In this document: positions 11,994-31,093 of the stretch, one piece after another
Layout: the number at the start of each line of letters is the position of its first letter
How positions within the stretch are numbered: position 1 is the stretch's first letter
Assembly: GCA_029012285.1 (NCBI GenBank)
Contig: JAQXLU010000066.1
Coordinates: 1 to 41,319 of the forward strand
From: Clostridiales bacterium
GTDB lineage: Bacteria; Bacillota; Clostridia; Christensenellales; Aristaeellaceae
Length of the DNA stretch: 41,319 bases
Reading direction: 5' to 3'
Notes under the pieces: generated by a model
Told to the model about the DNA's origin: nothing
Database searches by the model: none
The model's input: the letters and a program-made list of their open reading frames with translations, nothing else
Translations under genes and position numbers: made by a program

Positions 11994-12010
11994 TATCATC
12001 ACCTCCTTCG

Positions 12011-13810: not shown

Positions 13811-13849
13811 TCTAGCATCAATCCTTATTGAGGCCAATCTGCTAGATCA
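13808..13849. terminator. Inverted repeat after the HTH gene (weak terminator)
   Basis: TGATCTAGCA (13808-13817) and TGCTAGATCA (13840-13849) are perfect 10-base inverted copies, with a smaller CAAT/ATTG pair inside. There is no U-run, so it may equally be a protein or recombinase binding site. Confidence 0.4.
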
Positions 13850-13865
13850 TGCTGTACCTTGACAA

Positions 13866-14158: not shown

Positions 14159-14380
14159 ATGGCATTTGCCGTTGCTTCTAATGTCATAACAAACGAAAAC
14201 CTGGTTGACATTCGTGATGTGAAGGTAGATAAGACGCTCCCCAAGAATGAGCGCATAGCATCCTTCATTCGTCAGATCAAGAATCCCTATCATTTCCGTT
14301 GTGGTGATTTCGTAATCACAACAAGGTTTACTGAGGGGGGACAAACCCTTGAACAATGTCTGCAAGGTATCCTGCGTTGA
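14159..14380 (+). CDS. Small DUF6870-like protein of the recombinase module
   Basis: 73 residues, beginning AFAVASNVITNENLVDIRDV. The stretch VDIRDVKVDKTLPKNERIAS, then FIRQIKNPYHFRCGDFVI, resembles the small DUF6870-type proteins often found near site-specific recombinases in clostridial mobile elements; I recognise it by pattern only. ATG 14159 is preceded by GGAAGGAG. Function is unknown. It lies 117 bases upstream of the first serine recombinase in the same direction. Confidence 0.65.
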   Translation: MAFAVASNVITNENLVDIRDVKVDKTLPKNERIASFIRQIKNPYHFRCGDFVITTRFTEGGQTLEQCLQGILR

Positions 14381-14390
14381 ATCGGCAAAG

Positions 14391-14419
14391 TCGATTTTGT
14401 TTTTGATGAGTGCTATAAT
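14391..14419 (+). promoter_or_regulatory. Candidate promoter of the recombinase operon
   Basis: A consensus TATAAT at 14414-14419, with a weak TCGATT 17 bases upstream. The leader that follows carries an unusual mini-frame context (AAGGATGACC then CCCTGGCCTGA) resembling the leader of the 2512 gene. Confidence 0.45.
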
Positions 14420-14497
14420 GGTCGTGGAAAAGGATGACCCCCTGGCCTGACAACTGCTCATTGATCGCGGGACTTCCCGGGAGAAAGGAGTGGAATC

Positions 14498-16162: not shown

Positions 16163-17823
16163 ACATGGCGAGAAAGAGCAGAAAGAACTTGTCACCTGTG
16201 GTCAATGAGGAATACTCATTTGCTGGCTGGCGCGCTGCCGTTTATGTCCGCTTGTCTGTTGAGGATTCCCGAACCCGCACTGACTCCATTGAAACGCAGC
16301 AGATGATAATTCATGAGTTCCTTGAGGATCATCGGGATATTCAGGTGTTCGATACCTACATTGATAACGGAACGACCGGAACGAACTTCCAGCGCCCTGC
16401 CTTTCAGAGGATGTTGGATGACATTGAAAGCGGCAAAGTGAACTGTGTGATCGTGAAGGATCTGTCGCGGCTCGGCAGAAATTCCATTGATACCGGGTAC
16501 TACATTGAACGCTACTTTCCTGGCAAGAAGGTCAGATTCATTGCTGTCAATGAGGACTATGATACCGAGCAGGAACATAGCGAGCAGGACGCTCTGATGA
16601 TCCCGCTGCGCAACATGATCAACGAAGCCTATTCCATTGATATTGGCAAGAAGATCAAAGCGCAGCAACGGCAAGCCATGAAAGACGGCAAGTTTGTCGG
16701 AGCCCGCGCTCCTTATGGCTATCGGAAGTCGCCTGATGATTGTCATCAGCTGATTGCCGATCCGGTGGCCTCCAAGGTGGTTCAGCAGATGTTCCAGTGG
16801 GCTGCAGAAGGTGCTGGTATTAACACTATTGTTATGAAGCTGAATGAAGCTGGTTACTTGCCGCCAAGCCTGTATAAAGAATCCATCAATGAGTTCCCAG
16901 ACAAGGTGCAGCATTATCGCCTGAGCGCCGGTCATTGGTCAAGCTGGTCAGTACGCAGAATCCTGTTCAATCAGGTTTATGTAGGTGATCTGGTTCAGGG
17001 CAAGAGCAAAATCATCGACCATCAGCAGGTTAGGGCTGATGAAGATGAGTACACCATTGTACAGAACACGCATGAGGCAATCATCAGCCGGGAGCTGTTT
17101 GAACAGGTACAGCGCCTGATTATACAAGCGGGGCAAAAAGCCGTTGCTGCAAGGAAGAAGTCCTTTTCTCCTAATCCACTGAAGGGACTGGTGTTCTGCG
17201 GACACTGCGGCAGAAGCCTACACCGTGGCGACAATGAGCGTAAGAAGAGTGATAATGTATATGTATGGGCATGTCTGACACGCTATAGATATGACCGCAA
17301 CGGCTGTCCAGGCGTTCATATCTATGAACATAAGCTTATCGCAGCTTTAACCGAACTGCTCCAGAATGAGCTGGATACCGTGCTGGGGAGCCTCGAGCTG
17401 GCTTTGGATCAAACTGATGAGGAGCAGAGAAAGGTCGAAGCTATCCGACGTGAGATCAGTGCCTGCCGGAATGAGATTCAGCGGCTGCACGGTCTCAAAC
17501 GAGGGCTGTATGAGAATCTTCTGTCCGGGGTGTTGACGCAGGAAGAATACCAGTTCATGCGAACCAGGTACAACGGACAGGTTGAGCAGCAGAACAGTGT
17601 TATGAATACTCTTGAAGCGTCGCTGAAGCTGCTGCATCAGCATGACCAGCTCCGTTCCAGGCTTAAGGATGATGCGCAGTTCCTTCGGAACCGTCCAGAA
17701 CTGGCTGTTGAGATCATCAATCGCCTGATCAAGCGAATCGAGATCACCCATGATCGCCACATCACGGTGTACTACACCTTCACAGATGAAGTGAAGGCGT
17801 GGATGGGGGCGCATAGTGAATGA
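16159..17823 (+). CDS. Large serine recombinase 2
   Basis: 554 residues. A 25-residue N-terminal extension precedes AAVYVRLSVEDS (Ser33). The core motifs DNGTTGTNFQRPAF, VIVKDLSRLGRNSIDTGYYI and KKIKAQQRQAM are present. The Recombinase domain (YGYRKSPDDCHQLIADPVAS), zinc ribbon (LVFCGHCGRSLHRGD) and coiled-coil follow. ATG 16159 overlaps the previous stop; ATG 16165, two codons later, has slightly better ribosome-site spacing. Its end overlaps recombinase 3 by four bases. The three enzymes are clearly homologous but well diverged, which argues for separate roles rather than recent copying. Confidence 0.93.
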   Translation: MNMARKSRKNLSPVVNEEYSFAGWRAAVYVRLSVEDSRTRTDSIETQQMIIHEFLEDHRDIQVFDTYIDNGTTGTNFQRPAFQRMLDDIESGKVNCVIVKDLSRLGRNSIDTGYYIERYFPGKKVRFIAVNEDYDTEQEHSEQDALMIPLRNMINEAYSIDIGKKIKAQQRQAMKDGKFVGARAPYGYRKSPDDCHQLIADPVASKVVQQMFQWAAEGAGINTIVMKLNEAGYLPPSLYKESINEFPDKVQHYRLSAGHWSSWSVRRILFNQVYVGDLVQGKSKIIDHQQVRADEDEYTIVQNTHEAIISRELFEQVQRLIIQAGQKAVAARKKSFSPNPLKGLVFCGHCGRSLHRGDNERKKSDNVYVWACLTRYRYDRNGCPGVHIYEHKLIAALTELLQNELDTVLGSLELALDQTDEEQRKVEAIRREISACRNEIQRLHGLKRGLYENLLSGVLTQEEYQFMRTRYNGQVEQQNSVMNTLEASLKLLHQHDQLRSRLKDDAQFLRNRPELAVEIINRLIKRIEITHDRHITVYYTFTDEVKAWMGAHSE

Positions 17824-19346
17824 AACGATATGTGATTGCCAAATACATCCGGCTATCCCTTGAGGATACCAAGTATGAAAGCCTGAGCATTGAGAATCAG
17901 CGGTTGGTGATCGATACGCATATCGCTGGAATGCCGGAATCAGACTGCGCGGAGATTCTTGAGTTTGTCGATAATGGCTACTCCGGCACAAACTTTGAGC
18001 GCCCGGAAGTGCAGCGCCTGATTGAGTTGGTACGAAGTAATCGTGTTGACTGCATCATTGTGAAGGACTTCTCCCGATTCGGGCGTAACAGCATCGAAAC
18101 CGGCTACTTCATAGAGAGAGTTTTCCCGTTGTTCCATACTCGCTTCATTGCCATAGGTGATGGCTTCGATACGGACGAACACAGAGGCGATACGGGTGGA
18201 CTTGAGGTAGCTTTCAAGTATCTGATCAACGAGCAGTACAGCCGGGATATGTCGATCAAGTGCAAGAGTGCGAAGTACGCAAAAATGCGTCGGGGAGAGT
18301 ATCAGTCAAAGGAGTGCATCTTCGGTTATCGCAAAGGTGCAGACGGCAAATTGGAACCCGATCCGGATCAGGCTCCTGTGGTGCGGTTGATCTTTGAACT
18401 GGCGGCATCGGGCATGGGCTTCACTGCAATTGCCGCAGAACTGACCAAAAGGAGAATACCAACTCCTGGCGAAGTTAAAGCAGCTAAGGGAAACGGCACA
18501 TACGATGTGTCGCGTTGCAATGGCCGCTGGAACACAAGTACTGTCATCAGGATTCTTGATGATGAGCGGTTCCTTGGACACTATGTTCAAGGTGTCCGAA
18601 CTGTTACGGAGATCGGTGGACACCGGATCAGAAAAAAGGCAAAAGACAAATGGTTCTTTGTGCCAGATCAACATGAGCCCATTGTGGATCGGGAGCTTTT
18701 CGACAAAGCGCATGAGGGCCAGATCCGTTTTAACCTGAAAAACAAAAAAGTCCGCAACACGCCGTTGTGCGGGAAGGTCATCTGCGGTTGCTGTCATCAT
18801 GCTCTATCATATTACCCGAAGAAGGAGCCGGTGTATGTCTGCCGTGTCTCCCGCATGGATGAGACGCTGGCTTGTTATGGATTCCAGATACCTGTGTCGG
18901 ATGTTTTTGAGGCTGTATTCAATGTCGTCAGACAGCAGCTGATGGCTGCGGCGCCGGTAACGACGGATGGAGATCCGGCATTATCGTTGGCCGATGTTCA
19001 TCAGCAGCAGTACGAAGATCAGGTCGCCGAGATCATGGAATCCAAGCGGTTGCTGTATGAGCAGCTCATTGCAGGCGAAATAGAGGCAGACGCCTTTCAG
19101 CAGAGCAAATCATCCCTTGATGAAATGCTTGCGAAAACAAAAAGCACCTTTGCTGCGATAAGAGCAAAGGCTGAAGAAAAGCAGACGGCTGAAAACAGAC
19201 AGCAGCAGAGGCGGCGGATACTTGCTGATATGCAGGCTGAAGGCACCTTTTCCAATGAGCTAGCGGAACAGATCATTGATCGCATTCTGATCTACCCGGA
19301 TAAGCGGATTGAAATCATTTATAAGGTAGCTGATTTGTTTGCGTAA
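17820..19346 (+). CDS. Large serine recombinase 3
   Basis: 508 residues. The catalytic domain begins KYIRLSLEDTKYESLSIENQ (Ser13), with DNGYSGTNFERPEV and IIVKDFSRFGRNSIETGYFI; DLSRLGR is here DFSRFGR, a conservative variant. A Recombinase domain, a zinc ribbon (GKVICGCCHHALSYYP) and a helical region (QQYEDQVAEIMESKRLLYEQ) follow. ATG 17820 overlaps the stop of recombinase 2. It closes a three-gene translationally coupled operon, so the enzymes may act as a set. Confidence 0.92.
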   Translation: MKRYVIAKYIRLSLEDTKYESLSIENQRLVIDTHIAGMPESDCAEILEFVDNGYSGTNFERPEVQRLIELVRSNRVDCIIVKDFSRFGRNSIETGYFIERVFPLFHTRFIAIGDGFDTDEHRGDTGGLEVAFKYLINEQYSRDMSIKCKSAKYAKMRRGEYQSKECIFGYRKGADGKLEPDPDQAPVVRLIFELAASGMGFTAIAAELTKRRIPTPGEVKAAKGNGTYDVSRCNGRWNTSTVIRILDDERFLGHYVQGVRTVTEIGGHRIRKKAKDKWFFVPDQHEPIVDRELFDKAHEGQIRFNLKNKKVRNTPLCGKVICGCCHHALSYYPKKEPVYVCRVSRMDETLACYGFQIPVSDVFEAVFNVVRQQLMAAAPVTTDGDPALSLADVHQQQYEDQVAEIMESKRLLYEQLIAGEIEADAFQQSKSSLDEMLAKTKSTFAAIRAKAEEKQTAENRQQQRRRILADMQAEGTFSNELAEQIIDRILIYPDKRIEIIYKVADLFA

Positions 19347-19428: not shown

Positions 19429-20313
19429 ATGAGCAATCTGCCCACAACTACAGATCAGTTGAAGCAATATGAGCAGCGCATGATCCGAACTCACTGGGAT
19501 GATGCAGAGGAGAAGTGGTACTTCTCCATTGTCGATGTTGTCCAGGTATTGACAGACAGTGTTGACGGCCGCAAGTATTGGAATAAGCTGAAGCAGCGTC
19601 TCAAAGCCGAAGGAAATCAAACGGTGACAAATTGTCACCAGTTGAAAATGCTTGCTTCAGACGGCAAAATGCGCAAGACCGATGTAGCGGATGTGGAACA
19701 ACTGCTGCGTCTGGTGCAGTCTATTCCATCACCCAAGGCAGAGCCGTTCAAGCTGTGGCTGGCGCAGGTAGGCAGCGAACGAATTCAGGAGACGATTGAT
19801 CCCGAACTGAGCATTGATCGTGCGCTGGAAACCTATGCCCGCAAGGGATACTCCCGCGAATGGATCAACCAGCGTTTGCAGGCGATCCAGGTTCGCAAGG
19901 AGCTGACAGACGAGTGGCAGAGCCGTGGTGTACAGAAGGGCCTGGAATACGCTATTCTTACCGATGAGATCACCAGGGCTTGGTCGGGCTTGTCCACCCG
20001 CGAATATAAGCGGCTCAAGGGCTTGCGGAAGGAAAATCTCCGGGACAATATGAGTACCACCGAGATTGTTCTGAACATGCTGGCAGAGACGTCCACTACT
20101 GATATTTCCCGTGAAGAACAGCCGCAGACCTTTGCCGAGAATCGAGCTGTGGCGCAGAAAGGCGGCGAGGTCGCTGGCATTGCACGTCGTGCGTTGGAAG
20201 AACGTACTGGTCGGCCTGTTGTAACGAGTAAAAACGCGATGGATTTCCATCAACTGCTGATGGAGATTATTGTAGATTCAGCTGCATTGCCAGAGAATCC
20301 TGAGAGAAAATGA
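19429..20313 (+). CDS. BRO-N / DinD-like phage antirepressor-type protein
   Basis: 294 residues. An N-terminal BRO-type domain spans about 10-120 (RTHWDDAEEKWYFSIVDVVQ, RKYWNKLKQRLKAEGNQ, LWLAQVGSERIQETIDPELS). The C-terminal half contains RKELTDEWQSRGVQKGLEYA, ILTDEITRAWSGLSTREYKR and LRKENLRDNMSTTE, which match DinD and related phage antirepressor proteins. These bind DNA or antagonise repressors in damage responses and mobile elements. GGAGG lies 6 bases before ATG 19429. Placement after the recombinases suggests a regulator of the element, but this is context only. Confidence 0.82.
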   Translation: MSNLPTTTDQLKQYEQRMIRTHWDDAEEKWYFSIVDVVQVLTDSVDGRKYWNKLKQRLKAEGNQTVTNCHQLKMLASDGKMRKTDVADVEQLLRLVQSIPSPKAEPFKLWLAQVGSERIQETIDPELSIDRALETYARKGYSREWINQRLQAIQVRKELTDEWQSRGVQKGLEYAILTDEITRAWSGLSTREYKRLKGLRKENLRDNMSTTEIVLNMLAETSTTDISREEQPQTFAENRAVAQKGGEVAGIARRALEERTGRPVVTSKNAMDFHQLLMEIIVDSAALPENPERK

Positions 20314-20329
20314 AACCTGATTATCCAGA

Positions 20330-20362
20330 GGACAGTCTAAATTAATGGGCTGTCCATTCTTT
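20330..20362 (+). terminator. Weak terminator after the BRO/DinD-like gene
   Basis: GGACAGTC (20330-20337) pairs with GGCTGTCC (20348-20355), with one G-U pair. ATTCTTT follows. The loop is A/T-rich and the U-run short. Confidence 0.5.
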
Positions 20363-20386
20363 ATGCTGGCGATATATCCATAATGG

Positions 20387-20602
20387 TCATTTGGGTGGAA
20401 TATAGAATATGCTTCGTTGACTTGATGGTGAAAATAGTTTTGTCTTTAGCTTGACATAAGGGTGACGAAGATCATGCAGGCGAATATCGCGCAGGCCAGC
20501 CTTCTTCAGCATTCGCTTGAAGCCAGCGGAAAGCGTGTTTGGCTTCAAACGCTGTCCCATTTCGTTGACACAGATATAGTCAAGATACTGTGTGCAATTC
20601 AC
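20387..20602 (-). pseudogene. Remnant of a tyrosine recombinase (phage integrase)
   Basis: The frame contains YLDYICVNEMGQRLKPNTLS, AGFKRMLKKAGLRDIRLHDL and RH, which align with the integrase catalytic core up to the H-x-x-R-H motif (HDLRH). The usual continuation (S-x-A-S-L-L and on, then G-H and the catalytic Tyr) is absent; the sequence changes to unrelated PYVKLKTKLFSPSS. The N-terminal three quarters are missing as well. GTG 20602 opens the frame inside the end of the neighbouring small gene. It is a scar of an older integration event. Confidence 0.75.
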
Positions 20603-20852
20603 TCTGATTCACCTCCCTCAAAACGCCGGGGGCAACAATCACCAGCCGCAACGGCTGGGTGCGCAGGGTCGATACCTCATCGACGGAGTAGGGGCAGTAG
20701 CGATACACGCAGGTCTGAACGGGGTCAAATGGTCGATGCAGCCGACATGACCGGCACTCAGGAAGAATGCCGTCTGTGCCGCTGTCATACTGATCGTTCT
20801 CCGGTTCCTCCATCAGGAGCCTCATTGCGTTAAAACCGCCTCGGATTGCCAT
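20580..20852 (-). CDS. Small Cys-rich hypothetical protein
   Basis: 90 residues from ATG 20852 (GAAAGGA 9 bases upstream). The start is AIRGGFNAMRLLMEEP. A Cys cluster, C33-x2-C36-x11-C48-x4-C53, in ECRSCRLHRPFDPVQTCVYR-YC looks like a small zinc- or metal-binding ribbon. The C-terminal 30 residues may be altered by the junction with the integrase remnant. No family is recognised. It sits between recombinase scars. Confidence 0.5.
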   Translation of the reverse strand: MAIRGGFNAMRLLMEEPENDQYDSGTDGILPECRSCRLHRPFDPVQTCVYRYCPYSVDEVSTLRTQPLRLVIVAPGVLREVNQSELHTVS

Positions 20853-20896
20853 GGGAATCATTCCTTTCTGTTACGGATTTTGAGCAGCAAAAGCAG

Positions 20897-20925
20897 CCCC
20901 CGCTATGCAGTACGCATAACGGGGG
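20897..20925 (-). terminator. Terminator of the WG-repeat gene
   Basis: CCCCCG (20897-20902) and CGGGGG (20920-20925) flank an inner TATGC/GCATA pair. Read leftward, the hairpin is followed by GCTTTTGC. It lies about 80 bases after the stop of the 21003-21686 gene. Confidence 0.7.
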
Positions 20926-21002
20926 ACTGGAATGGAAATGTTCAGTTATCTTGCAAAGAAGTATCCATCTGCTTGAACGTACTAGACACAGTATTAACTC
21001 AA

Positions 21003-21686
21003 TTACTCAACAATGCTACCATATTTATCAATATATAGCCGCTCGCCATTGATTTCAACTTCGGCCACTCCATTAAGGAAACTTGCATCTGCCCAGGAGA
21101 AAATGCAAGGAATGGCCAATTGCAATGAACTGTCCAAATATCCATAAAGCCCATCTTTTTCAACCAATAACCGATCTTCGCTAAAGCCATCCCCCCAGGC
21201 AAAATGATAAGGTGCAATACTGTGAAGGTTTCCTTCAACATCCAGTAAGTATTCGCCTCCATCGGAAATGACGCACGCATAGCCATTGTGGAATCCGTAT
21301 GCAAACTCAAAAAACCAACCAGTAGTAGTTCCATCTACTGAGTAGAATTCATAAAGAGAACCGTTCTCTTCATTATGAGAAACTACATAGAATCCATCCT
21401 CTGGAATGGTAACTGAATCGAAGATACACGGTGCGAGCAGCCTCCCGCTTGTATCAATTAAGCCCACTCCACTGTCTGTATATACGCAGGAGTACCCATT
21501 TGAAAACCCAGAAATTTCAGAATAAATTGGAGAAACAATAACATTTCCCTGTGCGTCCATTACGCCCCATAGATCATTTTCCTCATAAACAACAAGCTGT
21601 TCATCATCGGCGCTTTCAAAAAGCGAAAGACTCCACCAACCAGCTATTGTACATAAGAGAAATAACAAGACCAATTTCTTTTTCAC
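21003..21686 (-). CDS. Secreted or membrane-anchored WG-repeat protein
   Basis: 227 residues. The N-terminus has a signal anchor (KKLVLLFLLCTIAGWWSLSL). Several degenerate WG/KWG repeats follow: LWGVMDAQGNVIVSPIYSEI, GVGLIDTSGRLLAPCIFDSV, GGEYLLDVEGNLHSIAPYHF, GLYGYLDSSLQLAIPCIFSW. WG repeats form beta-propeller-like structures of unknown function in many Bacillota. GTG 21686 is used because GGAGG lies 7 bases before it and the signal anchor begins there. The upstream DNA is a serine recombinase remnant, so its promoter may be new or lost. Confidence 0.8.
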   Translation of the reverse strand: MKKKLVLLFLLCTIAGWWSLSLFESADDEQLVVYEENDLWGVMDAQGNVIVSPIYSEISGFSNGYSCVYTDSGVGLIDTSGRLLAPCIFDSVTIPEDGFYVVSHNEENGSLYEFYSVDGTTTGWFFEFAYGFHNGYACVISDGGEYLLDVEGNLHSIAPYHFAWGDGFSEDRLLVEKDGLYGYLDSSLQLAIPCIFSWADASFLNGVAEVEINGERLYIDKYGSIVE

Positions 21687-21716
21687 GGTTCAACCTCCAC
21701 TCTTCGATTCTCTGAA

Positions 21717-21810
21717 CGTACACGGCGTTGATGAAGATGTCAACCAGGCGGCGGAAATCCGGATCGGCGGGATCGCCGTCGCGGAAGGCCTTTATCCTTC
21801 GGTTTTGCAT
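21717..21810 (-). pseudogene. C-terminal remnant of a serine recombinase
   Basis: The frame reads RRIKAFRDGDPADPDFRRLV and DIFINAVYV, the conserved segment near the C-terminus of many clostridial large serine recombinases (F-R-x-G-D ... F-x-N-A-V-Y). After VYV the match stops and the sequence passes into the leader of the WG-repeat gene. Only about 30 codons survive. It abuts the ABC exporter end and marks the boundary where GC content rises. Confidence 0.6.
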
Positions 21811-23984
21811 TCCCCTTGATCCGGTTCCATCTGCTTTTCCACAAGCCGTGCGAATTTCCCCTGTCTGGCCATCAGTTCCTCAAAGGTGCCCTGCTCAGCA
21901 ACTCTTCCTTCGTCCAGTACGACGATTCGGTCGCAGTTTTTGACCGTCGACAGTCTGTGGGCGACCATCAGGACGGTGGCCTTCGTCTCGAAAATGGCAT
22001 CCAGCACCTTGCTCTGCGTCACATTGTCCAGGGCGGAGGTCGCCTCGTCCAGCAGTAGAATTGGCGGGTGGGCCGCCAGCGCGCGAGCAATCAGAATCCG
22101 CTGCCTCTGTCCTCCGGAGAAGCCGCCGGTTGCCGTCTCCGAAATCTCCGTGTCCAGACCATAGGGAAGCGCCTTGATCACATCTTCAAGCTGCGCCCTT
22201 CTGGCCGCATCCCAGATGTCCTCCTCGGTCAGCCAGTCGGACGTGAAGGCGATATTGGAGCGTACAGTACCCGGGAAGACGCGGCTGAACTGAAAGACGG
22301 ATCCCACATGCTTGCGCACGGAGCGATGATTGAGCGTCTGCAGCGGTTTCCCGTCATAGAGCACCGAGCCGGCATTCGCCTTTTCAAGACCAAGGGCGAT
22401 TTTTAGTAGGGTGCTCTTGCCACAGCCGCTTTCTCCCACGATGCCGATCTTTTCGCCCTTTTTCACGGAGAACGACACCCCGTTCAGACACCGGCCTGCC
22501 TGAGCGCCGTAGGAGAAGACGATATCTTGAAACTCGATGCTGCCACGCAGCGCCTTGACGTATTCCGCACTTTGGGACGTTTCCAGGCTTTCCTCCCAAA
22601 AGGACTTCACCTGCTCCGCCAGGGGCTTGACCTTGAAAAAAGAACTAAACACATAGATGATCTGCTTGACCGCGCCATCCGAAAGAGCAAAGGCTGCGTG
22701 AAACGAGATGTAATCTGCCCGGCTGACGCCCGAGGGCACAGCAATACCCAGCAACAGAATCACACCAAGGGAAGAGATGGCTGACATGATGAGCCCGCTG
22801 AGCTTGATGAGTACCGGCTTGTTATGGACGTAGTGCAGCATCTTCTGGTAATACATGGCCCATTTGGCGTAAACCCTTGCTTGTGCACCTGAATTCTTGA
22901 TCTTCTGCATCCCCTTGATGGTCGCATAGTTGAAATTGGACAATTCCATCGAAATGTCCATTTTCTTCTTCTCATTCTCCGCCGAGGCTCGGCAGGTCAG
23001 AAAGGAGACCGCCAGCTTAGCCACAAGAATCCCCAGCGCCGGAATTGCCAGTGGCGGCGCAAAGAGAAACATCTGGGGAATGTAGATCAGGGAAAACAGG
23101 CCTGTCAGGGACAGGTCAAACACGATGTTCACCAGCAGCGTGGTCAGGGTTCTGACATTGCTCACCCGCTGGGAAAGGCGGCCCGCTGTGGAGCTGCGGA
23201 AAAAGTAATGGGACAGGTACAGCATTCTCGCCATCACTGCCGCCTGGGCCGATGTGGTGATGCGCGTCTTCGACCTGTGCAGAAGGAGCGATTTTGCCGC
23301 TCTGATGCACGCCGTGGCGGCGCCTGACATGAGGAACAGCAGCGCTGCCATCACGAGCGGGGCATAAGCCTCCTGACCCCGGGGCAGCAGCGTACCCAAC
23401 ACCGCGTGATGAATTTGCGGGGAAACCGTGCCCATCACGGCTGCCAGAGCCATGAGGACGCAGATCGGCACAACATCCCGCGGCGTGAACAGCTTGAGGA
23501 TGAAGCGCACAAAACGCCCGAATGTGAAGGTCTCCTCGTTCAAGGGGCGGTAGATGACCACGGCCTGAGGCTTCAGCGCCATCCCTTTGCCGACTCTCCC
23601 CGATGCGCCATTCGCCAGACAGAGGTAGCGATACCCAAACACTGTCGGGAACAGCCCGACAGCCTCTCCACTCTTCAGGAAGCCCAGCATGACGTCGGTA
23701 TCCCGCTTCCATGTCCTGGGCTCCAGCTCCACCTTTTCATACATCATGCCTTTCGGCTCCAGAACCCTGTCCAGCATTTCCTCCAGCGTCTGGCAGCCAT
23801 AGACATAATCCGCGGCGATATCCCATTGATTCAAGATGTAGCGGAGCATTCCCTGAGCGTCATCGATGCTTGTTTCCTGGAAAGAGCCCGGTTTTCCGGT
23901 GCCAAATAGGCTCTCATCCGCCTGCCGCTCCAGCTGACTGTCCCGCTGTTCCCGCTCCAATAGCTGCTCTGTATACAGTCCCAT
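21792..23984 (-). CDS. NHLM-type bacteriocin exporter, ATP-binding/permease subunit without peptidase
   Basis: 730 residues. An N-terminal domain of about 150 residues without protease motifs is followed by a DUF-like segment, an ABC transmembrane domain of about six segments (residues 170-450; VVPICVLMALAAVMGTVSPQ) and a nucleotide-binding domain with Walker A GESGCGKST, signature FSGGQRQRI and Walker B ILLLDEATSALD. This is the architecture of the second, peptidase-less exporter of nitrile-hydratase-leader microcin (NHLM) systems. ATG 23984 is chosen for GTGAGG about 8 bases upstream; an in-frame ATG at 24008 overlaps the previous gene. It is the third gene of the RT operon and appears intact. 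Confidence 0.85.
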   Translation of the reverse strand: MGLYTEQLLEREQRDSQLERQADESLFGTGKPGSFQETSIDDAQGMLRYILNQWDIAADYVYGCQTLEEMLDRVLEPKGMMYEKVELEPRTWKRDTDVMLGFLKSGEAVGLFPTVFGYRYLCLANGASGRVGKGMALKPQAVVIYRPLNEETFTFGRFVRFILKLFTPRDVVPICVLMALAAVMGTVSPQIHHAVLGTLLPRGQEAYAPLVMAALLFLMSGAATACIRAAKSLLLHRSKTRITTSAQAAVMARMLYLSHYFFRSSTAGRLSQRVSNVRTLTTLLVNIVFDLSLTGLFSLIYIPQMFLFAPPLAIPALGILVAKLAVSFLTCRASAENEKKKMDISMELSNFNYATIKGMQKIKNSGAQARVYAKWAMYYQKMLHYVHNKPVLIKLSGLIMSAISSLGVILLLGIAVPSGVSRADYISFHAAFALSDGAVKQIIYVFSSFFKVKPLAEQVKSFWEESLETSQSAEYVKALRGSIEFQDIVFSYGAQAGRCLNGVSFSVKKGEKIGIVGESGCGKSTLLKIALGLEKANAGSVLYDGKPLQTLNHRSVRKHVGSVFQFSRVFPGTVRSNIAFTSDWLTEEDIWDAARRAQLEDVIKALPYGLDTEISETATGGFSGGQRQRILIARALAAHPPILLLDEATSALDNVTQSKVLDAIFETKATVLMVAHRLSTVKNCDRIVVLDEGRVAEQGTFEELMARQGKFARLVEKQMEPDQGECKTEG

Positions 23985-23994
23985 CTTCTTTACC

Positions 23995-26114
23995 TCACTG
24001 CGCGTCAATCAGCTGACGGTAGAGCGTGCCCTCCTGGGAAAGCTCCTCATGTGTTCCCCGCTCCACGATCTTGCCGTTTTTCATCACCAGAATCTGATCA
24101 CACTGCCTGACCGTCGAGAGCCGGTGCGCCGCCAGGATGCAGGTCGTCCCCTTGTTCCGGATGGCCTCAAAGACCTTCTCCTCCGTCAGTGCGTCCAGCG
24201 CAGAGGTGAATTCATCCAGGAGCAGAAGCGTGGGCTCCTGGGCCAAGGCTCTGGCGAGCTCCAGCCGCTGAAGCTCGCCGCCGGAGTAATTCCGGCCGCC
24301 TTCCAGAACCGGTGCGTCGTAGGTTTCGCTGTTGCGCATGATTCTTTCATGGATCTGGGCGCCCTTGCAGCCAGGATCATCTCGTAATCCTCAATGGTCC
24401 TGTCCCACATCTTCAGGTTTTCCTTGAGGCTGTCCTCAAAAAATGTCAGTTCCTGATCAACGGAGCTCACCGAGGCTCGAAAGACCACCTCCGGGATTTC
24501 TGCCCTGCGCCTCCCGTCATAGAGGATCTCGCCGGAAGATGGATTGTACAGGCCGGCCAGCATTTTCAGCAGCGTGCTTTTGCCGCAGCCCGTCGCGCCG
24601 ACGACGGCCACCATCTGCCCCGGTTCTGCCCGGAAGGACACATTGTCAACCGCCAACGCGTCCCCGGTGTGGTAGCGGTACGACAGGCCACGCACCTGAA
24701 GCGCGCCGTTTGGTTTGTCCATCATGCCCTGGGCGGGTATAGGTTTCTCGCCCTCGTGCGCCAGAATGTCGTCCACGCGTTCCATGTCCGAACGCATCAT
24801 TTGCAGGGACTGTCCCGTCGTCATGAACGTTTTCAGCGAAGCTCGAACCTTGGAGAACATCGCCTGAAAGGCGGACAGCATGCCCATGGTGAAATTGCCG
24901 TTGATGATGAACAGCACACCCCCGAACAGCAGCACCGCGCTCATCAGTGTGTCGTACGCCCCGCCCAGCAATGCCTGGTACGCGCTGAGCCGCTGGGTTT
25001 CCTCCTGACTGCTGCGGTATGCCCTCTGCGACCGGATCCATTTGGTAAAAAAGCTGCGTTCCGCGCCGAGGGACTTGATCGTTTCGATGTTGTTCAGGCC
25101 ATTGAGCAGCGACGTTTTCATGGCGCTGGTGTTTGTTCGCAGGCTGCGGTAAGCGTCCGCCTGTGCGCGCTGCATATATAGCGACAGCGTCAAATACAGC
25201 GCCTCGATGCCCAGGCACACCAGTGCAAGCGTCGGCTGATCATAAAACATCAGCACCAGATACAGCAGGGTTGTGATGCTGTCGCAGAATCTGGGCAGCA
25301 GCTTTTCCAGCAGCGAGTGGCCGATGTAGATGTTCTGATCCAGCCGCTCCATCAGTTCGCCTGCAAAGTTCTGCTCAAAGAACTCCATGGGCAGACTGAG
25401 CAGCTTTTTGTACAGCTTCGAGCCGGAATGGGCCGCCATGCTTCGGCTGATCTGTGTGATCCTCAGGGCTTCATAGGCTGAAAACAGGATTCTGACGGCA
25501 AGCGTGATGCTCATCAGCAGGAGAACAGCCGCATACCCCCGGTGTGCTTCGTCCCCAGCGACCCGGTCGAGCATCACCTGAACCAGAGCCAGCGAGGTCA
25601 GGCTCATCAGCGCGCTCATACCATGTGCGCCAGCAATTGCCGCCGCGCTCCGGCGGAATTCCGCCATGCGGCTTCCGATTCTCGCCCACAGGCTGTCTGG
25701 CTTGCCCTCCGGCACAAAGTCCGGCCCCGGCATCAGCTCGAGAACCTTTCCGGTACAACCCTGGAAAAAGGCCTCCTCCCTGAGGCTGACCGCACCCATA
25801 AAGGGGTCATTGAGCCGCACTCTTCCCCTGGAAAAGCTGGTTACCACCACGAAGTATTTTCTCTTCCACTGCGCAATGCAGGGCAGATGAACATGCGCCC
25901 ATTCATCCCGCTTGACCCGCTTCACCTCGCTGTCAAGCCCAAAGGCCCGGGCCGCCTGGCACAGATGCTCCGGCGTCGATCCATTGCGGGTATTCAGGCA
26001 CTTTGAGCGGATCTGCTCCATGGGAAGGTATTTGTGATGATATGCAAGCATCATGGCCAGCGCTGTCGCGCCGTTTTCGCCGCTTTGCATCTGTATGATG
26101 ACAGGAACCCTCAT
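23995..26114 (-). pseudogene. Frameshifted NHLM-type ABC exporter with degenerate C39 domain
   Basis: The N-terminal 130 residues are C39-like (VIIQMQSGENGATALAMMLA, FVVVTSFSRGRVRLNDPFMG). The catalytic Cys position is Asn14 (ENG instead of ECG) and the His position is Tyr87 (KYFVVV); only Asp103 remains. A six-helix ABC membrane domain and a nucleotide-binding domain (Walker A GATGCGKST) follow. At about 24357-24364 (GGGCGCCC) one base is missing. The frame shifts after MILAARA and the true continuation (QIHERIMRNSETYDAPVLEG, signature YSGGELQRL, Walker B LLLLDEFTSALD) is in the next frame down to 23995. ATG 26114 has AAGGAGAAA upstream, 20 bases after the RT stop. Possibly a real pseudogene, possibly a sequencing error. 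Confidence 0.82.
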
Positions 26115-26134
26115 TCGTTTCTCCTTCTCCACGT

Positions 26135-27352
26135 TTATCGTTCATCCTTCAGGAAATCCCGATAATAGGCATGGACAGTGGTTCTGTACCCCAACTCCCG
26201 CATCTTCGCGTATTTCGCCCGGTATTGGCGGTCGGACAGCGTGCCGGTTGCTGCATAGCGGATGTACTTCTGCATGATCGCATCAATTCTCTTGAGACCC
26301 TTTGTCGTCGTGATCACGGGGAACGTCCAGACCGTCCAGTTCAGCACATGCCGGTTCTCATCCTGGTGAAAGAGAATCGCGTTGACCTTGCTGATCATGC
26401 GGCGCATGGCCTCCTCGTCAGAAAACCCATGCTTCCGCTTCAGGTACAGTATCCTCTCAGCCCTTCTTTTTACTTTCCGCTCGATTTTCATGATGGCATG
26501 CTCGGAAATATCGATCTCTTTGCCGGAAAAGCTGAAGCCCATCATCTCAAAGGGTTCTCCCGGCATGTAGTTCCGGGTCTTCTCCTCATTGAGCCCGAGC
26601 CCCTTTTCGCACAGCATGGCCTCCAGCAGCGCTCTGCATTGCAGCATCTGCTCCCGGTTGTCTGTCAGGATCAGAATATCATCGGCATACCGCGCATAGA
26701 AACGGCATTGTTCCGCAAAGTGCTTATCAATGTCCATCAAATACAGATTGGCGAGGAAATTGGAGAGCGGCATCCCGGGGATTGCGCCGGGATGACCTGC
26801 GGTCAGCACGCCGTCCACCGTATAGGTCCGCCGGAGCAGCAGCCAGTGAAGGAACTGGGCGAAGGCGGGATCACCTGCAAACACCCGGTCCGTGATCCCA
26901 ACCAGCTTCTCTTCATCAATCGAATTGAAATAGGCCCTTACATCCGTCCGGACTTTATAGCTTTCGTTAAGGCGGGGAAGCCTGCCGAGTTGCTTGGATA
27001 GCGTGACCGCGTTCCGGCTCGTGCGAAATGAGTAGAGATTGTCAGTAAACAGCGCATCATATCGTTCACCTGCGACAAAGGCCATATAGCTCATCAGCAT
27101 CCGGATTTCCGGCGCAAACAGATAAAGGATGCGCTTATTTCCGCCGAGGCTTTTTTTTATGGGCTTTTCTTCTGGCGGGTCAATAAAAAAATCCCCCGCG
27201 GCGAGGCGTTCAATCGCTTGTGTGTAGCTTTCACTGAACACATACGCCCGGAGTTTCTCCTTTTCACGCTCGCTCACTCCGATGGCCTGATCCCTGTGCA
27301 TAGTAAAACGCGTTTTGGTTTCACTTTGCAGCATCACGTCAAAAATCCCCAT
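26135..27352 (-). CDS. Stand-alone reverse transcriptase
   Basis: 405 residues. RT motifs are in order: YSFRTSRNAVTLSKQL; VRTDVRAYFNSID (first catalytic Asp); GAIPGMPLSNFLANLYLMDI; RFYARYADDILIL with YADD at 222-225; LNEEKTRNYMPGEPFEMMGF. A helical thumb-like part (ISEHAIMKIERKVKRRAERI) and a C-terminal segment (FPVITTTKGLKRIDAIMQKY, ELGYRTTVHAYYRDF) follow. There is no maturase or HNH domain and no intron boundary, so it is not an ordinary group II intron protein; it looks like a retron/UG-type or otherwise stand-alone RT. ATG 27352 has AAAGGAG 6 bases upstream. It heads an operon with two NHLM exporters and is preceded by strongly structured non-coding DNA. Confidence 0.88.
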   Translation of the reverse strand: MGIFDVMLQSETKTRFTMHRDQAIGVSEREKEKLRAYVFSESYTQAIERLAAGDFFIDPPEEKPIKKSLGGNKRILYLFAPEIRMLMSYMAFVAGERYDALFTDNLYSFRTSRNAVTLSKQLGRLPRLNESYKVRTDVRAYFNSIDEEKLVGITDRVFAGDPAFAQFLHWLLLRRTYTVDGVLTAGHPGAIPGMPLSNFLANLYLMDIDKHFAEQCRFYARYADDILILTDNREQMLQCRALLEAMLCEKGLGLNEEKTRNYMPGEPFEMMGFSFSGKEIDISEHAIMKIERKVKRRAERILYLKRKHGFSDEEAMRRMISKVNAILFHQDENRHVLNWTVWTFPVITTTKGLKRIDAIMQKYIRYAATGTLSDRQYRAKYAKMRELGYRTTVHAYYRDFLKDER

Positions 27353-27399
27353 GGCCTTCTCCTTTATCCACAACGTGCATGACAGCGCCAGATGGAAAG

Positions 27400-27580
27400 C
27401 AACAACACAAAGGGCCTGCACCAGCAGGCAACGCCTGCCAACACCGGCCCTTTGCATGGAATTGTACATCCTAAAGCGAGAGGAAGGGAACATACTTGAG
27501 GAAATGAATATTGATATACTCTCTATTCGCAAGGCCATCCGCCTGCAGGATGATTTCAAGGGCCTTGTGAATATTGCCAT
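27400..27580 (-). ncRNA. Candidate structured RNA upstream of the reverse transcriptase
   Basis: Two large hairpins occur here. H2 has AAAGGGCC (27409-27416) with GGCCCTTT (27446-27453) around an inner GCAGGC (27424-27429) and GCCTGC (27433-27438). H1 has TATTCGCAAGGCC (27524-27536) with GGCCTTGTGAATA (27561-27573), one non-Watson-Crick position, and an inner ATCC/GGAT pair. No gene is convincing on either strand between 27353 and 27742. Structured DNA directly before a stand-alone RT recalls retron msr-msd or other RT-associated RNAs. Strand is assumed from the RT; the one odd pair in H1 would be G-U on the plus strand. Confidence 0.45.
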
Positions 27581-27618
27581 GCAGGCACGCAGGACGCGCA
27601 TCCCTTCCTTTCCTGCTC

Positions 27619-27646
27619 ATTTTACCACAGGCAGAAGGATTTGTAA
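27619..27646 (-). promoter_or_regulatory. Candidate promoter of the RT operon
   Basis: Read leftward, TTACAA (27646-27641), 16 bases, TAAAAT (27624-27619). A transcript from here would carry both hairpins before the RT start, a leader of about 260 bases. The hexamers are moderate matches. Confidence 0.4.
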
Positions 27647-27742
27647 GCGTAAATGTTTCATGACAATGAAATACTCGATGAGGCTTCCTTTTTGTTGCTT
27701 TGTTTACAGCTTGCCCTATGGCAGCCCCTCTGACGATTGCAC

Positions 27743-29818
27743 TCAACCGATGATGAGTTTGCTTGTATCCAGCGTGAGCCCCTCGCCCCGGGCCACGGCC
27801 TTGCCATCCTTCACCTGCACATCCACCAGGGTCAAGCCGGCATCCAGATCAATGTGGGTGGTCTCGCCATCGTCGTCGTACAGGGTGAATGCGGTGCCGT
27901 GATCCAGCCAGCCCAGCAGTGTCAGATGCGTCCCGTCCACCCCGGCAACATACTCGGCGGGCTTGGACAGCGGAATCACCTGACCGCGCCGGATGAAGAG
28001 CGGGAATTCGTTCAACGCCAGGTCGATCCAGTGATCACCCTTGGTCATGGGCACCAGGTCGTAATCCGCCGCGCTGCGCAGGCGCACCAGGAGCATGTCC
28101 TCGGGCAGGTAGACATAGCGGCCCCGGGCGTTCTGCTCGTAGACGGGGGCGATCATGCACGCGCCGGCGAGCATCAGCTGATCCTCCACGCGGCAGGCCC
28201 GCTTGTCCGTCGGGTAGTCGAAGGCCAGGGGGCGGAAGAGCATATCGTCCTTGCAGGCAGCCTTGACCAATTCGGAATACAGGTAGGGGATGAGCGCATA
28301 GCGGACGGTCAGGGTGTCGCGCAGCTGCTCCCAGTTGCGGAAACGATAGATCTCCTGGTCGCGCGTGCCCATGGCGGCATGGTTGCGCATCAGCGGGGTG
28401 AACACGCCCAGCTGCAGCCAGCGCTGGAGCAGATCCTCGGTGGTATTCTGCCCGAAGCCGCCCAGGTCCGCGCCGGTGTAGAGGAAGCCGCACATGTTCA
28501 TGCCGGGCAGCTCCCTCAGGTTGAGCAGGATGTGGCTCCACCAGGAGAAGTTGTCGCCCTGCCACACGCCGCCGTCGCGGTGCGCGCCAATGAAGGACGC
28601 GCGGCTGAACAGCAGATGGCGCTTGTCCGGGTTGAAGGCCTTCATGCCCTGCGCACCGGCCTTGGTCATCATGGCGCCGTAGAGGTTGTGCACCCGGTCG
28701 TGGCGGACGCGCTTGCCGTCGATGAGATGGTAGAAGCGGCGGTAATCCTCCATGGAATTGGCCGTGCCGGTGAAGGCGTCCTTCAGCGCAAAAAAGTCGT
28801 ACACGCCGATGTTCTTGCCCCGCAGCTCCTCCGCCTTGGCGTAGGCGGCTGATAACCCCTCTTCGGAGTAGAAGATGGCCGGCTCGTTCATGTCGTTCCA
28901 GAAGGCCTCCACACCAGCCTCCAGCATGCTGTGGTATTTGCTGCCGAACCACTGGCGCACCTCGTCCCGCATGAAGTCCGGGAAAACCGCGTGTCCAGGC
29001 CAGACCGCGCCCACAAATACGCTGCCGTCCGCCTTTTTGACGAAGTAGTCCTTCTCCATGCCCTCGTCGTAGGTGGGGTCGCCGGGGCACTCCTTTACGC
29101 CCGCGTCGATGATGGGCATGACGCGGATGTGGTCAGCCTTGAAGTCAGCGATCATGCCGGGCAGGTCGGGGAACTTCTTCGCGTCCCAGGTGAAGTCCTT
29201 GAAGTCCTCCATGTAGTCGATGTCCATGGACATGGTGTCCAGGGGGATATGGCGCTCCCGGTGGTTGCGGACCACCTCGCGCAGATCCTCCTCGGTGGAA
29301 TAGCCCCAGCGGCTCTGGATGTAACCCAGCCCCCACTTGGGCGGCAGATAGCTGCGCCCGATGATATGGCGGAACTCCTTCACCGCGCCGATGAGCGTAT
29401 CCGCCTCGATGTAGTAGGCGGAGCAATCCCCGTTTTCGCAGGTGATGACGGCTTCGTCGCCCCTGGTGTAGCCCAGGTCGAAGGTGACTGCGCCGGGGTC
29501 GTCCACATACAGCCCGAAAATCCCCTGCTTGCCGGAGAAAATCACCAGGTTATGGCAGGCGTACAGGGAGGCCTTGTCCTCGGTGTGGGCACAATCATCG
29601 GAGCACCAGGCGCGGTAGCGGTGTCCGCGCTTGTTGATGCCGCGCACCGTTTCGCCCAGGCCGAAGATCTGGTCATCCTCGTCCAGCGCGACCCGGAAGG
29701 ACAGCGTGCCTTCGCCCCGGGTCACGGTGAAACGGGGCATCTCGTCCGTGCAGACGGGCTGGGGGAGATAGATGGCGCCGGTGGGGATGGGGGTGCCGTA
29801 ATCGTATCTGCGGATCAT
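27743..29818 (-). CDS. GH31 family alpha-glucosidase
   Basis: 691 residues. GH31 signatures are present: FGLGETVRGINKRGHRYRAW, PPKWGLGYIQSRWGYSTEED, DIDYMEDFKDFTWD and the nucleophile Asp309 in FWNDMNEPAIF; a second conserved stretch is SRASFIGAHRDGGVWQGDN. A C-terminal beta region is intact. There is no signal peptide, so it acts in the cytoplasm on imported alpha-glucosides. ATG 29818 is preferred (GAGGG 8 bases upstream) over ATG 29824. Upstream lies a palindrome and a cre-like site, fitting carbon catabolite control. Confidence 0.93.
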   Translation of the reverse strand: MIRRYDYGTPIPTGAIYLPQPVCTDEMPRFTVTRGEGTLSFRVALDEDDQIFGLGETVRGINKRGHRYRAWCSDDCAHTEDKASLYACHNLVIFSGKQGIFGLYVDDPGAVTFDLGYTRGDEAVITCENGDCSAYYIEADTLIGAVKEFRHIIGRSYLPPKWGLGYIQSRWGYSTEEDLREVVRNHRERHIPLDTMSMDIDYMEDFKDFTWDAKKFPDLPGMIADFKADHIRVMPIIDAGVKECPGDPTYDEGMEKDYFVKKADGSVFVGAVWPGHAVFPDFMRDEVRQWFGSKYHSMLEAGVEAFWNDMNEPAIFYSEEGLSAAYAKAEELRGKNIGVYDFFALKDAFTGTANSMEDYRRFYHLIDGKRVRHDRVHNLYGAMMTKAGAQGMKAFNPDKRHLLFSRASFIGAHRDGGVWQGDNFSWWSHILLNLRELPGMNMCGFLYTGADLGGFGQNTTEDLLQRWLQLGVFTPLMRNHAAMGTRDQEIYRFRNWEQLRDTLTVRYALIPYLYSELVKAACKDDMLFRPLAFDYPTDKRACRVEDQLMLAGACMIAPVYEQNARGRYVYLPEDMLLVRLRSAADYDLVPMTKGDHWIDLALNEFPLFIRRGQVIPLSKPAEYVAGVDGTHLTLLGWLDHGTAFTLYDDDGETTHIDLDAGLTLVDVQVKDGKAVARGEGLTLDTSKLIIG

Positions 29819-29873
29819 GTGCATATCCCTCGCTTGTTTTGATGGTGCGCGGGTGCCGCGCGTTGCCTATAGG

Positions 29874-29914
29874 TTTCGGCAGGAAGGACGTTTTTCCTGC
29901 CGAAAACGTTACCA
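29874..29914 (-). promoter_or_regulatory. Palindrome and cre-like operator upstream of the GH31 gene
   Basis: TTTCGGCAGGAA (29874-29885) and TTCCTGCCGAAA (29894-29905) form a 12-bp perfect inverted repeat. It overlaps CGAAAACGTTACCA (29901-29914), which matches the CcpA/LacI-type cre consensus except at two outer positions. Carbon-source control of the glucosidase is inferred. Confidence 0.45.
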
Positions 29915-29931
29915 ATCCTCGAAAAGTCCAC

Positions 29932-29957
29932 AAAAACGCCCTCCGCGATAGAGGGCG
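29932..29957 (-). terminator. Terminator of the FAD oxidoreductase gene
   Basis: CGCCCTC (29937-29943) and GAGGGCG (29951-29957) with a 7-base loop. Read leftward it is followed by TTTTT (29936-29932), 11 bases after the gene's stop. Confidence 0.8.
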
Positions 29958-29968
29958 GAATGGGCTTG

Positions 29969-31093
29969 TTATGCGTTTGCCGTGACCAGCTTTTTCACCT
30001 GCAGTGCCCGGGAGGTATCGCCCACCAGGATGGCGCCGACGACCTTGCCGTCCACGGAATAGATGCGCTCGCCCGGCTTGGCTTCCACCTGGTAGGTTTT
30101 GTCCGGATTGCGGCCCACATCGCCGATGGCGAACAGCTCGGTTTCAAAGCCGTGGAAGATCAGCGGGCGCGGCACCACCTTGTAGGCAGCCTCGCCGCCC
30201 GCCGCATTGACGCCTGCCACGCGGCCCATCTCGGCGGCCTCGGCCCACAGCGCGTAGGAGAAGCCGCACACGGCGCAGTCGCCCGCCGCATAGACGTCCG
30301 GCGCGGAGGTTGCCATGTGGTCGTCCACAATGATCTTGCGATCCACCTGGATGCCTGACGCCGCCGCGATTTCTGCATTGGCCCGCACGCCTGCGGACAC
30401 CAGCACGATGTCTGCCGGGATGAGACGCCCGTCGGTCAGGTGGAGGCCCTCATCATCCACAAAGGCGGTGCTGGCCCGGGTGAGCAGCTGCACGCCATGC
30501 TTGCCCATGACCTGGGTCAGGTGGGCGGCGGCTTCATCGTCGATCTGCCTGGACATGATCTGCTTGTCGAACTCGATCACCGTCACGTCCAGTCCGGCCT
30601 GGCGCAGCGACCAGGCGGCCTCCAGCCCCAGCACACCGCCGCCGATCACCGCGGCGGTCTTGGCGGTTTTGGAAAGGGCACGCACGCGCTCCGCGTCCGC
30701 CATGGTGCGCACTGCGATTACATTGGCCCTGTCGCTGCCCTCAAAGGGCGGGATGAAGCACCGCGCGCCCAGGGCATACACCAGCTTGTCGTAGGGGAAA
30801 AGGAGCCCGTCCGAAAGGGAAACCGTCTTGGCGGCGGTGTCGATGGCGGACACGGTGCGGCCCGTCAGCACCAGAATATCGCGGCCGGGCGCGTCGTACC
30901 AGGCGGCGGTTTCCAGCGCCAGGTCAGCGGCGGTCAGGTCGCTGAGTAGCTGCTTGGTCAGCGCGGGGCGGTTGTAGGGCAGTGCGTCCTCGTTGGTCAG
31001 CAGGACGATCAGCCCCGAGGCGTCCTGCTTGCGGATGGCCTTCGCCGCGGAAAGGGCCGCCATGCCGCCGCCCAGAATCAAATAACGCTTCAT
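29969..31093 (-). CDS. FAD-dependent NAD(P)H oxidoreductase (pyridine nucleotide-disulphide family)
   Basis: 374 residues. The N-terminal FAD Rossmann motif YLILGGGMAALSAAKAIR, the second NAD(P) motif AAVIGGGVLGLEAAWSL and the C-terminal FAD motif APDVYAAGDCAV are all present. The order matches rubredoxin or ferredoxin reductases and nitrite reductase-like FAD proteins; there is no redox-active CxxxxC near the N-terminus. The likely role is moving electrons from NAD(P)H to a small redox protein in anaerobic or oxygen-stress metabolism. ATG 31093 has AAAGGAG upstream. It is monocistronic with its own terminator. Confidence 0.88.
   Translation of the reverse strand: MKRYLILGGGMAALSAAKAIRKQDASGLIVLLTNEDALPYNRPALTKQLLSDLTAADLALETAAWYDAPGRDILVLTGRTVSAIDTAAKTVSLSDGLLFPYDKLVYALGARCFIPPFEGSDRANVIAVRTMADAERVRALSKTAKTAAVIGGGVLGLEAAWSLRQAGLDVTVIEFDKQIMSRQIDDEAAAHLTQVMGKHGVQLLTRASTAFVDDEGLHLTDGRLIPADIVLVSAGVRANAEIAAASGIQVDRKIIVDDHMATSAPDVYAAGDCAVCGFSYALWAEAAEMGRVAGVNAAGGEAAYKVVPRPLIFHGFETELFAIGDVGRNPDKTYQVEAKPGERIYSVDGKVVGAILVGDTSRALQVKKLVTANA

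Follow-up and report, generated by a model that had tools for sequence, protein, structure and literature searches.

What would a reverse transcriptase do in one operon with two exporters of the kind that move peptides out of cells? The question is raised by a 41,319-nucleotide stretch of DNA (contig JAQXLU010000066.1; the whole stretch is called the window here) from a Clostridiales bacterium known from sequence alone. An operon with a reverse transcriptase (RT) gene followed by two ATP-binding cassette exporter genes (ABC1 and ABC2), as described in an initial annotation of the sequence, is indeed present, with all its genes on the minus strand, and forms an accessory gene unit. Our answer, which we hold tentatively and a little short of even confidence, is that the locus combines a UG26-type RT and its structured RNA with a dedicated, non-cleaving exporter pair derived from the NHLM family, which serves as the membrane part of a probably anti-phage unit.

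The reverse transcriptase and its RNA

The RT matches Pfam RVT_1 with an E-value of 3e-16 (scored on the longer open reading frame (ORF) 26138-27601; the best start, by eye, is the ATG that follows AAGGAG). It is a stand-alone enzyme with a YADD motif, as first annotated, and domain searches reported no separate maturase or nuclease domain. The PADLOC profile RT_UG26 (PDLC03764) matches it at 344.7 bits (E 1.4e-103) over profile positions 1-394 of 398, the next profile reaching 100.8 bits. Both active-site aspartates are invariant across 26 aligned RTs, most of which read YSDD, with YCDD in locus L048 and FSDD in L049. A tree built from 34 RTs groups the window RT with eight RTs of the same bacterial family (L042-L049; support 100/98) beside 21 typical UG26 RTs. 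Some branches of this tree are long, and the joining of L047 and L048 with L049 is possibly false. This clade of nine RTs comes from eight genomes, and the window RT is 32-36% identical to its members and 26-31% identical to the typical UG26 RTs aligned. The profile scores place the enzyme in UG26, far below the cut-offs for group II and retron St85 RTs, and its sequence assigns it to a deep sister clade of the typical UG26 RTs. Among 308 genomes of the family the UG26 profile picked out 26 at E 1e-30, with scores of at least 276 bits at 15 places in 14 genomes, and among 391 genomes of the class (the class sets being an even draw from a larger group) it picked out 16 at E 1e-50, the window's own genome included. 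A protein scan of a genome contig collection gave a single relative, L002.

A structure descriptor pointed to elements immediately upstream of typical UG26 RTs whose architecture resembles that of the RNAs in genus g17 (below). Thirteen of these RNAs, when aligned, form 88.8% of paired cells and change on both sides at 28 of 37 pairs; they hold 73 double-changed cells, as against 24.9 in shuffles, and every cell of the pseudoknot helix is paired. A covariance model of the thirteen (R1) recovers seven of the eight typical loci outside its training (L002, L037, L041, L069, L071, L072 and L080; not L039). The RNA lies on the same contig as the RT, upstream and on its strand, in 20 of 21 typical loci, 1.2 kb away in L069; in the L039 genome it is on a different contig. 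The Rfam model RT-5 (RF03026, cut-off 45.7) matches all nine typical loci tested, at 57.6-90.3 bits, and the RNA beside typical UG26 RTs is this known class. None of four outgroup loci (L050-L052, L082) shows the RNA in searches with R1 and a second model, R2. RT-5 RNAs also occur away from a UG26 RT, in L071 (16175-16303, minus strand, 7.3 kb off) and on a separate contig of genome G213 (C194, locus L125), and these stray copies suggest action in trans.

R2 was built from 23 RNAs, leaving out the window, L042-L045 and L049; the E-values of both models are rough. In the window it finds the RNA listed in Table 1 at 27.4 bits (E 0.00018 over 41 kb, both strands, filters off), the next place scoring 14.1 bits. 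R1 also ranks this place first within 20000-30000 (17.3 bits, E 0.012), the plus strand there reaching 6.3 bits. The descriptor had marked the place on the plus strand only, and gave many chance matches, among them some inside RT genes and on both strands; the minus-strand assignment came from comparison by eye first and from the models afterwards. Of the 34 model pairs 29 are formed in the window RNA, and a 7-nt upstream complement to its hairpin loop is equalled in 63 of 20000 shuffles of the 5' segment. The structured leader of the initial annotation stands in part. For the leader as a whole the fold is within the range of shuffled sequences (z -1.56; 9 of 100 shuffles equal it) and was rejected as evidence, while the RNA region 27477-27616 reaches z -2.40 (3 of 200 shuffles as good). 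Judged from sequence and mainly by comparison, the meaningful leader element is 27479-27611, and the RNA is likely real. In many relatives a TATAAT or GATAAT stands, by eye, at the position of the window's TAAAAT. We call the RNA RT-5-like rather than a member of RT-5, because Rfam's own model does not report it; the gathering score is reached neither by the window nor by L043-L045, and in the rest of the clade L046, L047 and L048 score 26.0-30.8 bits, below the cut-off, with L049 unreported.

Further RNAs of the clade are matched by R2 in L049 (28.1 bits; missed by R1 at its true place) and L042 (23.9 bits), and more weakly in L045, L044 and L043 (19.2-16.7 bits, E 0.06-0.23). Across nine clade RNAs (one copy each for L043-L045, and a false short L046 match at 50-90 left out) 90.1% of cells form the structure and 26 of 34 pairs are changed on both sides, a count as high in none of 500 shuffles; the count of further pair types is equalled by 45 of 500. 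These nested-helix counts lean towards the model, since the nested helices were fitted to it. The pseudoknot, although the model does not contain it, forms in 97.8% of the cells of the nine RNAs and is changed on both sides at all five pairs, its sequences differing among CCTGC/GCAGG, TCCGT/ACGGG, TCTGC/GCAGA and TTCCC/GGGAA. Over the 308 family genomes R2 gave ten matches in ten genomes, all with a high-scoring UG26 RT and nine of them beside it. Because eight of the ten had supplied model RNAs (G213 and G126 had not), the informative part of this search is the 298 genomes with no match; with its stricter filters it missed the four genomes with exporter-bearing RTs, the most diverged RNAs, and the L042 RNA.

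In three species of genus g17 (L043-L045) the RNA lies in a gap of 420-430 nt between RT and ABC1, as two copies of a 115-nt element. By eye, the copies have promoter-like and terminator-like ends, with TTGCA(T/C)-N17-TATAAT ahead and a T-run behind, on the strand opposite the RT; a place on the RT strand was rejected, the models matching the other strand only and the promoter-like and T-run signals agreeing. The element occupies two places per genome in all three, with none elsewhere there by blastn and none in genome G000, which led us to reject a genome-wide repeat. Over the clade, the RNA is found upstream on the RT strand (window), upstream antisense (L046), downstream on the same strand (L047, L048) or downstream antisense (L042-L045, L049), and this varying position again suggests action in trans.

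An exporter pair next to the reverse transcriptase

Two NHLM exporters, 20 bases behind the RT, had been annotated. The spacing from RT stop to ABC1 start is correct, ABC2 comes next, and both proteins are NHLM-like, but ABC1 is broken and both fall under the curated cut-offs. ABC1 is covered by overlapping ORFs in different frames (24186-26132 and 23995-24339), which match TIGR03796 at 440.8 and 167.6 bits against a cut-off of 853.3, a shortfall that the frame break may explain in part. ABC2 scores 526.2 bits with TIGR03797 (cut-off 709.4). The ordinary NHLM ABC1 of the same genome passes TIGR03796 at 944 bits, and the window ABC2 is 39.6% identical to the RT-linked ABC2 of L043, as compared with 34.6% to its own genome's ordinary NHLM ABC2.

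The C39-like domain of ABC1 is altered. In all four RT-linked copies (the window and three from g17) the catalytic Cys is replaced by Asn and the His by Tyr, with the Asp kept. Cys and His are kept in 36 of 36 ordinary NHLM ABC1 (27 from the family, that of the window's genome included, and 9 from the class), these being the best-scoring loci among matches in 141 family and 22 class genomes. Having lost its protease site, ABC1 is unlikely to cleave a leader peptide; what remains is binding, transport or a pore-like action, and this narrows what the membrane part can do. The ATPase motifs of the g17 exporters look intact by eye.

In the genomes searched, this exporter type was found next to these RTs only. 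The N-terminal 462 residues of the L043 ABC1, searched against the 308 family genomes, score 1013, 938 and 927 bits in the g17 trio, 302 in the window and at most 223 elsewhere; the type is present in four of 308 genomes, each time beside the RT, with at most five candidates scored per family genome (four per class genome). A profile of the four sequences, window included, gives 849 bits for the window and at most 320 for any other of the 391 class genomes. The ABC1 tree unites the four with 100/100 support and separates them from 27 ordinary copies, on long branches. Window and L043 share 45% identity in the C39-like domain, 31% in the permease and 62% in the ATPase part compared.

The initial annotation had proposed looking for recurrence of the exporters next to homologous RTs. 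RT, ABC1 and ABC2 do recur in the same order and strand in the three g17 species (G289, G287 and G277), with identities to the window of about 38% (RT), 40-41% (ABC1) and 39-40% (ABC2), while most homologous RTs lack these exporters, including the closest RT relative of the trio, L042; RTs without such neighbours were what the annotation had named as evidence against its reading, and this objection applies in part. The g17 frames are open, and dN/dS is 0.10-0.16 for RT, 0.12-0.28 for ABC1 (0.13-0.37 for its C39-like part) and 0.15-0.19 for ABC2, with dS low for the pair L044-L045. The three operon copies are under purifying selection. The L042 RT groups with the trio (100/100), shares a downstream 5'-nucleotidase-like flank gene and has the RNA, and since it lacks exporters, these must have been gained or lost at least once. 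No exporters are present in the fetched stretches of L046, L048 and L049. L047 contains, at 10595-17499 (minus strand), two radical-SAM genes and an ordinary-type NHLM ABC2, the latter about 5 kb from the RT with the radical-SAM genes in between.

The absence of precursor and modification genes, noted at first, is borne out. Small ORFs of 20-110 amino acids that follow a Shine-Dalgarno-like motif were scanned for; there are none in 27345-27760 on either strand or in 21690-21800 on the minus strand, and the RT-ABC1 gaps of L043-L045 likewise gave none. One small-ORF read in L043 was not counted, as its start coincides with the first nucleotide of the sequence scanned, a position at which the motif test breaks down. 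A hidden precursor ORF was rejected on these empty scans, though their criteria are narrow. No modification enzyme is present in the operons of the window and L043-L045.

Other partners and surroundings of the operon

Typical UG26 RTs have a different neighbour. A protein with a conserved domain that ends in a WWNT motif is encoded immediately ahead of the RNA in 9 of 21 typical loci (seven seeds and two found with them) and in none of nine clade loci; no Pfam family matches this WWNT-domain protein above cut-off, NCBIfam gives nothing convincing, and it has no solved relative. It also stands beside the stray RNA of G213. The loci with this protein are L036, L037, L038, L040, L073, L075-L078 and L125, and the domain is doubled in L036, L038 and L125. 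The exporters may take the place of the WWNT protein as partner. In L049 a gene for a 1061-amino-acid AMP-binding protein (6656-9841, minus strand) overlaps the start of the UG26-like RT ORF by four bases.

The GH31 gene adjoining the operon is present in 17 of 18 genomes of the genus. Five of five genus mates, in fetched stretches of 9-16 kb, have no nucleotide match to the operon side beyond GH31, and tblastn found no RT or RT-type exporter in the same five, with one 230-residue ATPase-like match in L160. As these mates match GH31 and nothing on the operon side, we regard the operon as accessory DNA.

Table 1. Positions of the operon and its parts in the window
Feature	Position	Strand	Remarks
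Operon order, 5' to 3'	RNA (27611-27479), hairpin (27457-27405), RT (27352-26135), ABC1 (from 26114), ABC2 (to 21792)	-	
Candidate -10-like hexamer TAAAAT ahead of RNA	27619-27624	-	by eye, from sequence
RT-5-like pseudoknotted RNA	27479-27611	-	likely; upstream of RT, same strand; models R1, R2
Pseudoknot 5' half GCCTGCA	27580-27586	-	predicted to pair with 27541-27547
Pseudoknot 3' half TGCAGGC, loop of hairpin P5	27541-27547	-	predicted to pair with 27580-27586
Strong hairpin separating RNA from RT, without clear T-run	27405-27457	-	fold z -2.34, equalled by 5 of 200 shuffles
UG26-type RT, 405 amino acids, YADD	26135-27352	-	PADLOC RT_UG26; Pfam RVT_1
NHLM-like ABC1 (C39-like domain, permease, ATPase), broken frame	23995-26114	-	ORFs 24186-26132 and 23995-24339
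NHLM-like ABC2 (permease, ATPase)	21792-24008	-	TIGR03797, E 1.4e-157
WG-repeat protein, directly downstream of ABC2	21003-21686	-	

Some further genes of note lie on the plus strand of the window. At 8706-10628, adjacent TIR-like (ThsB-type), caspase-like and second TIR-like genes form a possible defence or cell-death unit. A Bro-N protein (19429-20313), which matches the PADLOC candidate PDC-S13 at 457 bits, comes just after three tandem genes with overlapping ends that by eye are serine-recombinase-like (14498-19346), likely part of a mobile element. An IstA/IstB-like pair of IS21 type, by eye, lies at 5077-7247.

Possible function and relation to known systems

From these parts one may infer how the unit acts, by analogy with the defence-associated RT (DRT) systems. 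On this reading, the RT would bind the RNA and reverse-transcribe a portion of it, in the manner of Class 2 DRT enzymes, and the RNA-RT complex or the complementary DNA (cDNA) would set the state of the exporter pair, which would act as a membrane component or effector. Phage infection might disturb this control, whereupon the membrane part would damage the cell or halt its growth. Some type I secretion exporters carry a C39-like domain that serves for docking, and the domain that has lost its protease function could play such a role here. A more specific form, in which the nucleic-acid product of RT and RNA directly controls the pair through the former peptidase domain, making it a membrane effector or gate of an RNA-DNA immunity, is more doubtful.

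The initial proposal of a defence or competition unit gains support from the recurrence in another genus, the distinct exporter subfamily and the RT's own structured RNA. Its competition side would have the pair move an uncleaved or separately cleaved peptide encoded elsewhere, with RT and RNA as a regulator or a separate immunity module. The exporters do come from peptide-exporting stock, the ATPase motifs of the g17 copies look intact by eye, and substrate binding can survive the loss of catalysis in a C39-like domain, as in HlyB. We nevertheless find this unlikely, given the lost protease site, the operons devoid of modification enzymes and the empty small-ORF scans of the window leader and the L043-L045 gaps. 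Less probable still is that RT and RNA work alone and the exporters are an unrelated, co-transcribed passenger. UG26 RTs do keep varied company (the WWNT protein in part of the typical loci and none of the clade, the AMP-binding protein in L049), the L042 flank lacks exporters although its RT groups with the trio, and the genus mates show no nucleotide similarity on the operon side beyond GH31 in the stretches fetched. Yet the gene order is identical in two deep lineages, an exporter of this type was not found apart from an RT in the 308 family and 391 class genomes, few candidates being scored per genome, and the four ABC1 share their catalytic loss and are united by their tree.

An RT that entered a decayed cluster for a ribosomally synthesised and post-translationally modified peptide, also suggested at first, would fit the broken window ABC1 and the missing precursor and modification genes. 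This idea now seems very improbable, as purifying selection (dN/dS 0.10-0.28) acts on the three intact g17 operons, whose catalytic changes are those of the window, and the RT has an RNA of its own. Hardly credible at all is a group II intron, retron or other mobile retroelement. The RT fold is common to such elements and the group II maturase model TIGR04416 does match, but at 104.4 of the 300 bits needed; the one retron model compared, NF038233 (retron St85), gives 47.4 of 235 bits, Rfam matches no intron in the window, and genomes with the RNA have one or two copies of it, with few exceptions next to the RT. Group II intron and retron identities were rejected on the scores below cut-off and the missing intron RNA, and the clear group II intron that would have spoken against the initial annotation is unsupported.

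Several observations weigh against the favoured reading of an RT-RNA unit with a dedicated exporter pair. The link rests on two lineages, one of which is three close species; the four exporter-bearing RTs are not a clade in the RT tree, L042 grouping with the trio; and the pair is missing from five of nine clade RT loci. None of the 21 typical UG26 loci shows a full-length ABC1 or ABC2 match, six (L036-L039, L069, L070) having matches of 104-230 residues to the ATPase domain only, and for three (L002, L038, L076) the downstream side is out of view, their contigs stopping no more than about 0.5 kb past the RT. The window ABC1 frame is broken, with intact copies in relatives, and its C39-like domain, 45% identical to that of L043, is also 39-40% identical to ordinary ABC1. 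The Rfam RT-5 model gives no match in the window at E up to 10. The variable loop shows no enrichment of an A-B-A' pattern, which 8 of 23 RNAs have (window not among them) against 9.6 expected, with 259 of 300 shuffles as high, though the loop tested may not be the template; this count lends no support to template repeats like those of DRT10, and any cDNA made therefore need not be a tandem repeat. Finally, UG26 RTs were not found in the phage and plasmid collections searched, and viral contigs gave no match for the window RT or ABC1 and two partial, distant ones for typical RTs. This absence is qualified by one report, which lists UG26 among the RTs of cold-seep viruses (PMC10504277).

In the literature searched, that list is the only place where a UG26 RT is named. 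The same literature gave no text joining NHLM, reverse transcriptase and ABC transporter and no mention of 'RT-5 RNA', dedicated surveys of UG/Abi RTs and structured-RNA discovery papers being outside its reach. We do not claim the RT-exporter association as unpublished; UG26 RTs and RT-5 RNA are already catalogued.

The locus ties UG26 RTs to an RT-5-like RNA, giving a testable three-part unit, and adds a new kind of partner, an exporter without a protease site. Like UG26 RTs in general, the window RT matches the profile nearly end to end and is preceded on its own strand by its putative RNA, the arrangement seen at 20 of 21 typical loci; unlike the typical ones, it belongs by sequence to a deep sister clade and has exporters instead of the WWNT partner. 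Its RNA shares with RT-5 the order of helices, the loop-to-upstream pseudoknot and the place next to a UG26 RT, but is unreported by the Rfam model, and RNAs of its clade may be downstream, antisense or in two copies. With the NHLM/NHLP bacteriocin exporters (TIGR03796, TIGR03797) the pair shares the two-gene make-up, the domain order and the best family match, and it differs in its scores below the curated cut-offs, its Cys-to-Asn and His-to-Tyr peptidase changes, its link to an RT and the lack of precursor or modification genes found.

A known parallel is DRT10, which joins a UG17 RT, a noncoding RNA (ncRNA) and a SLATT membrane protein, all three being required (PMC12632851). As in the window, RT, structured RNA and membrane protein stand in one locus; the window has the exporter pair in place of SLATT, its neighbours being ABC exporters and GH31. 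DRT2, DRT9 and DRT10 all employ ncRNA-templated cDNA in phage defence (PMC12632851, PMC12483538, PMC12039810), and for DRT10 the authors propose that cDNA modulates SLATT, raising the steering of membrane effectors by nucleic acids as an open matter (PMC12632851). The present locus looks like an unstudied variant of such bacterial RT defence systems and, if this is true, would add to the view that nucleic acids are the means by which DRT systems control membrane effectors.

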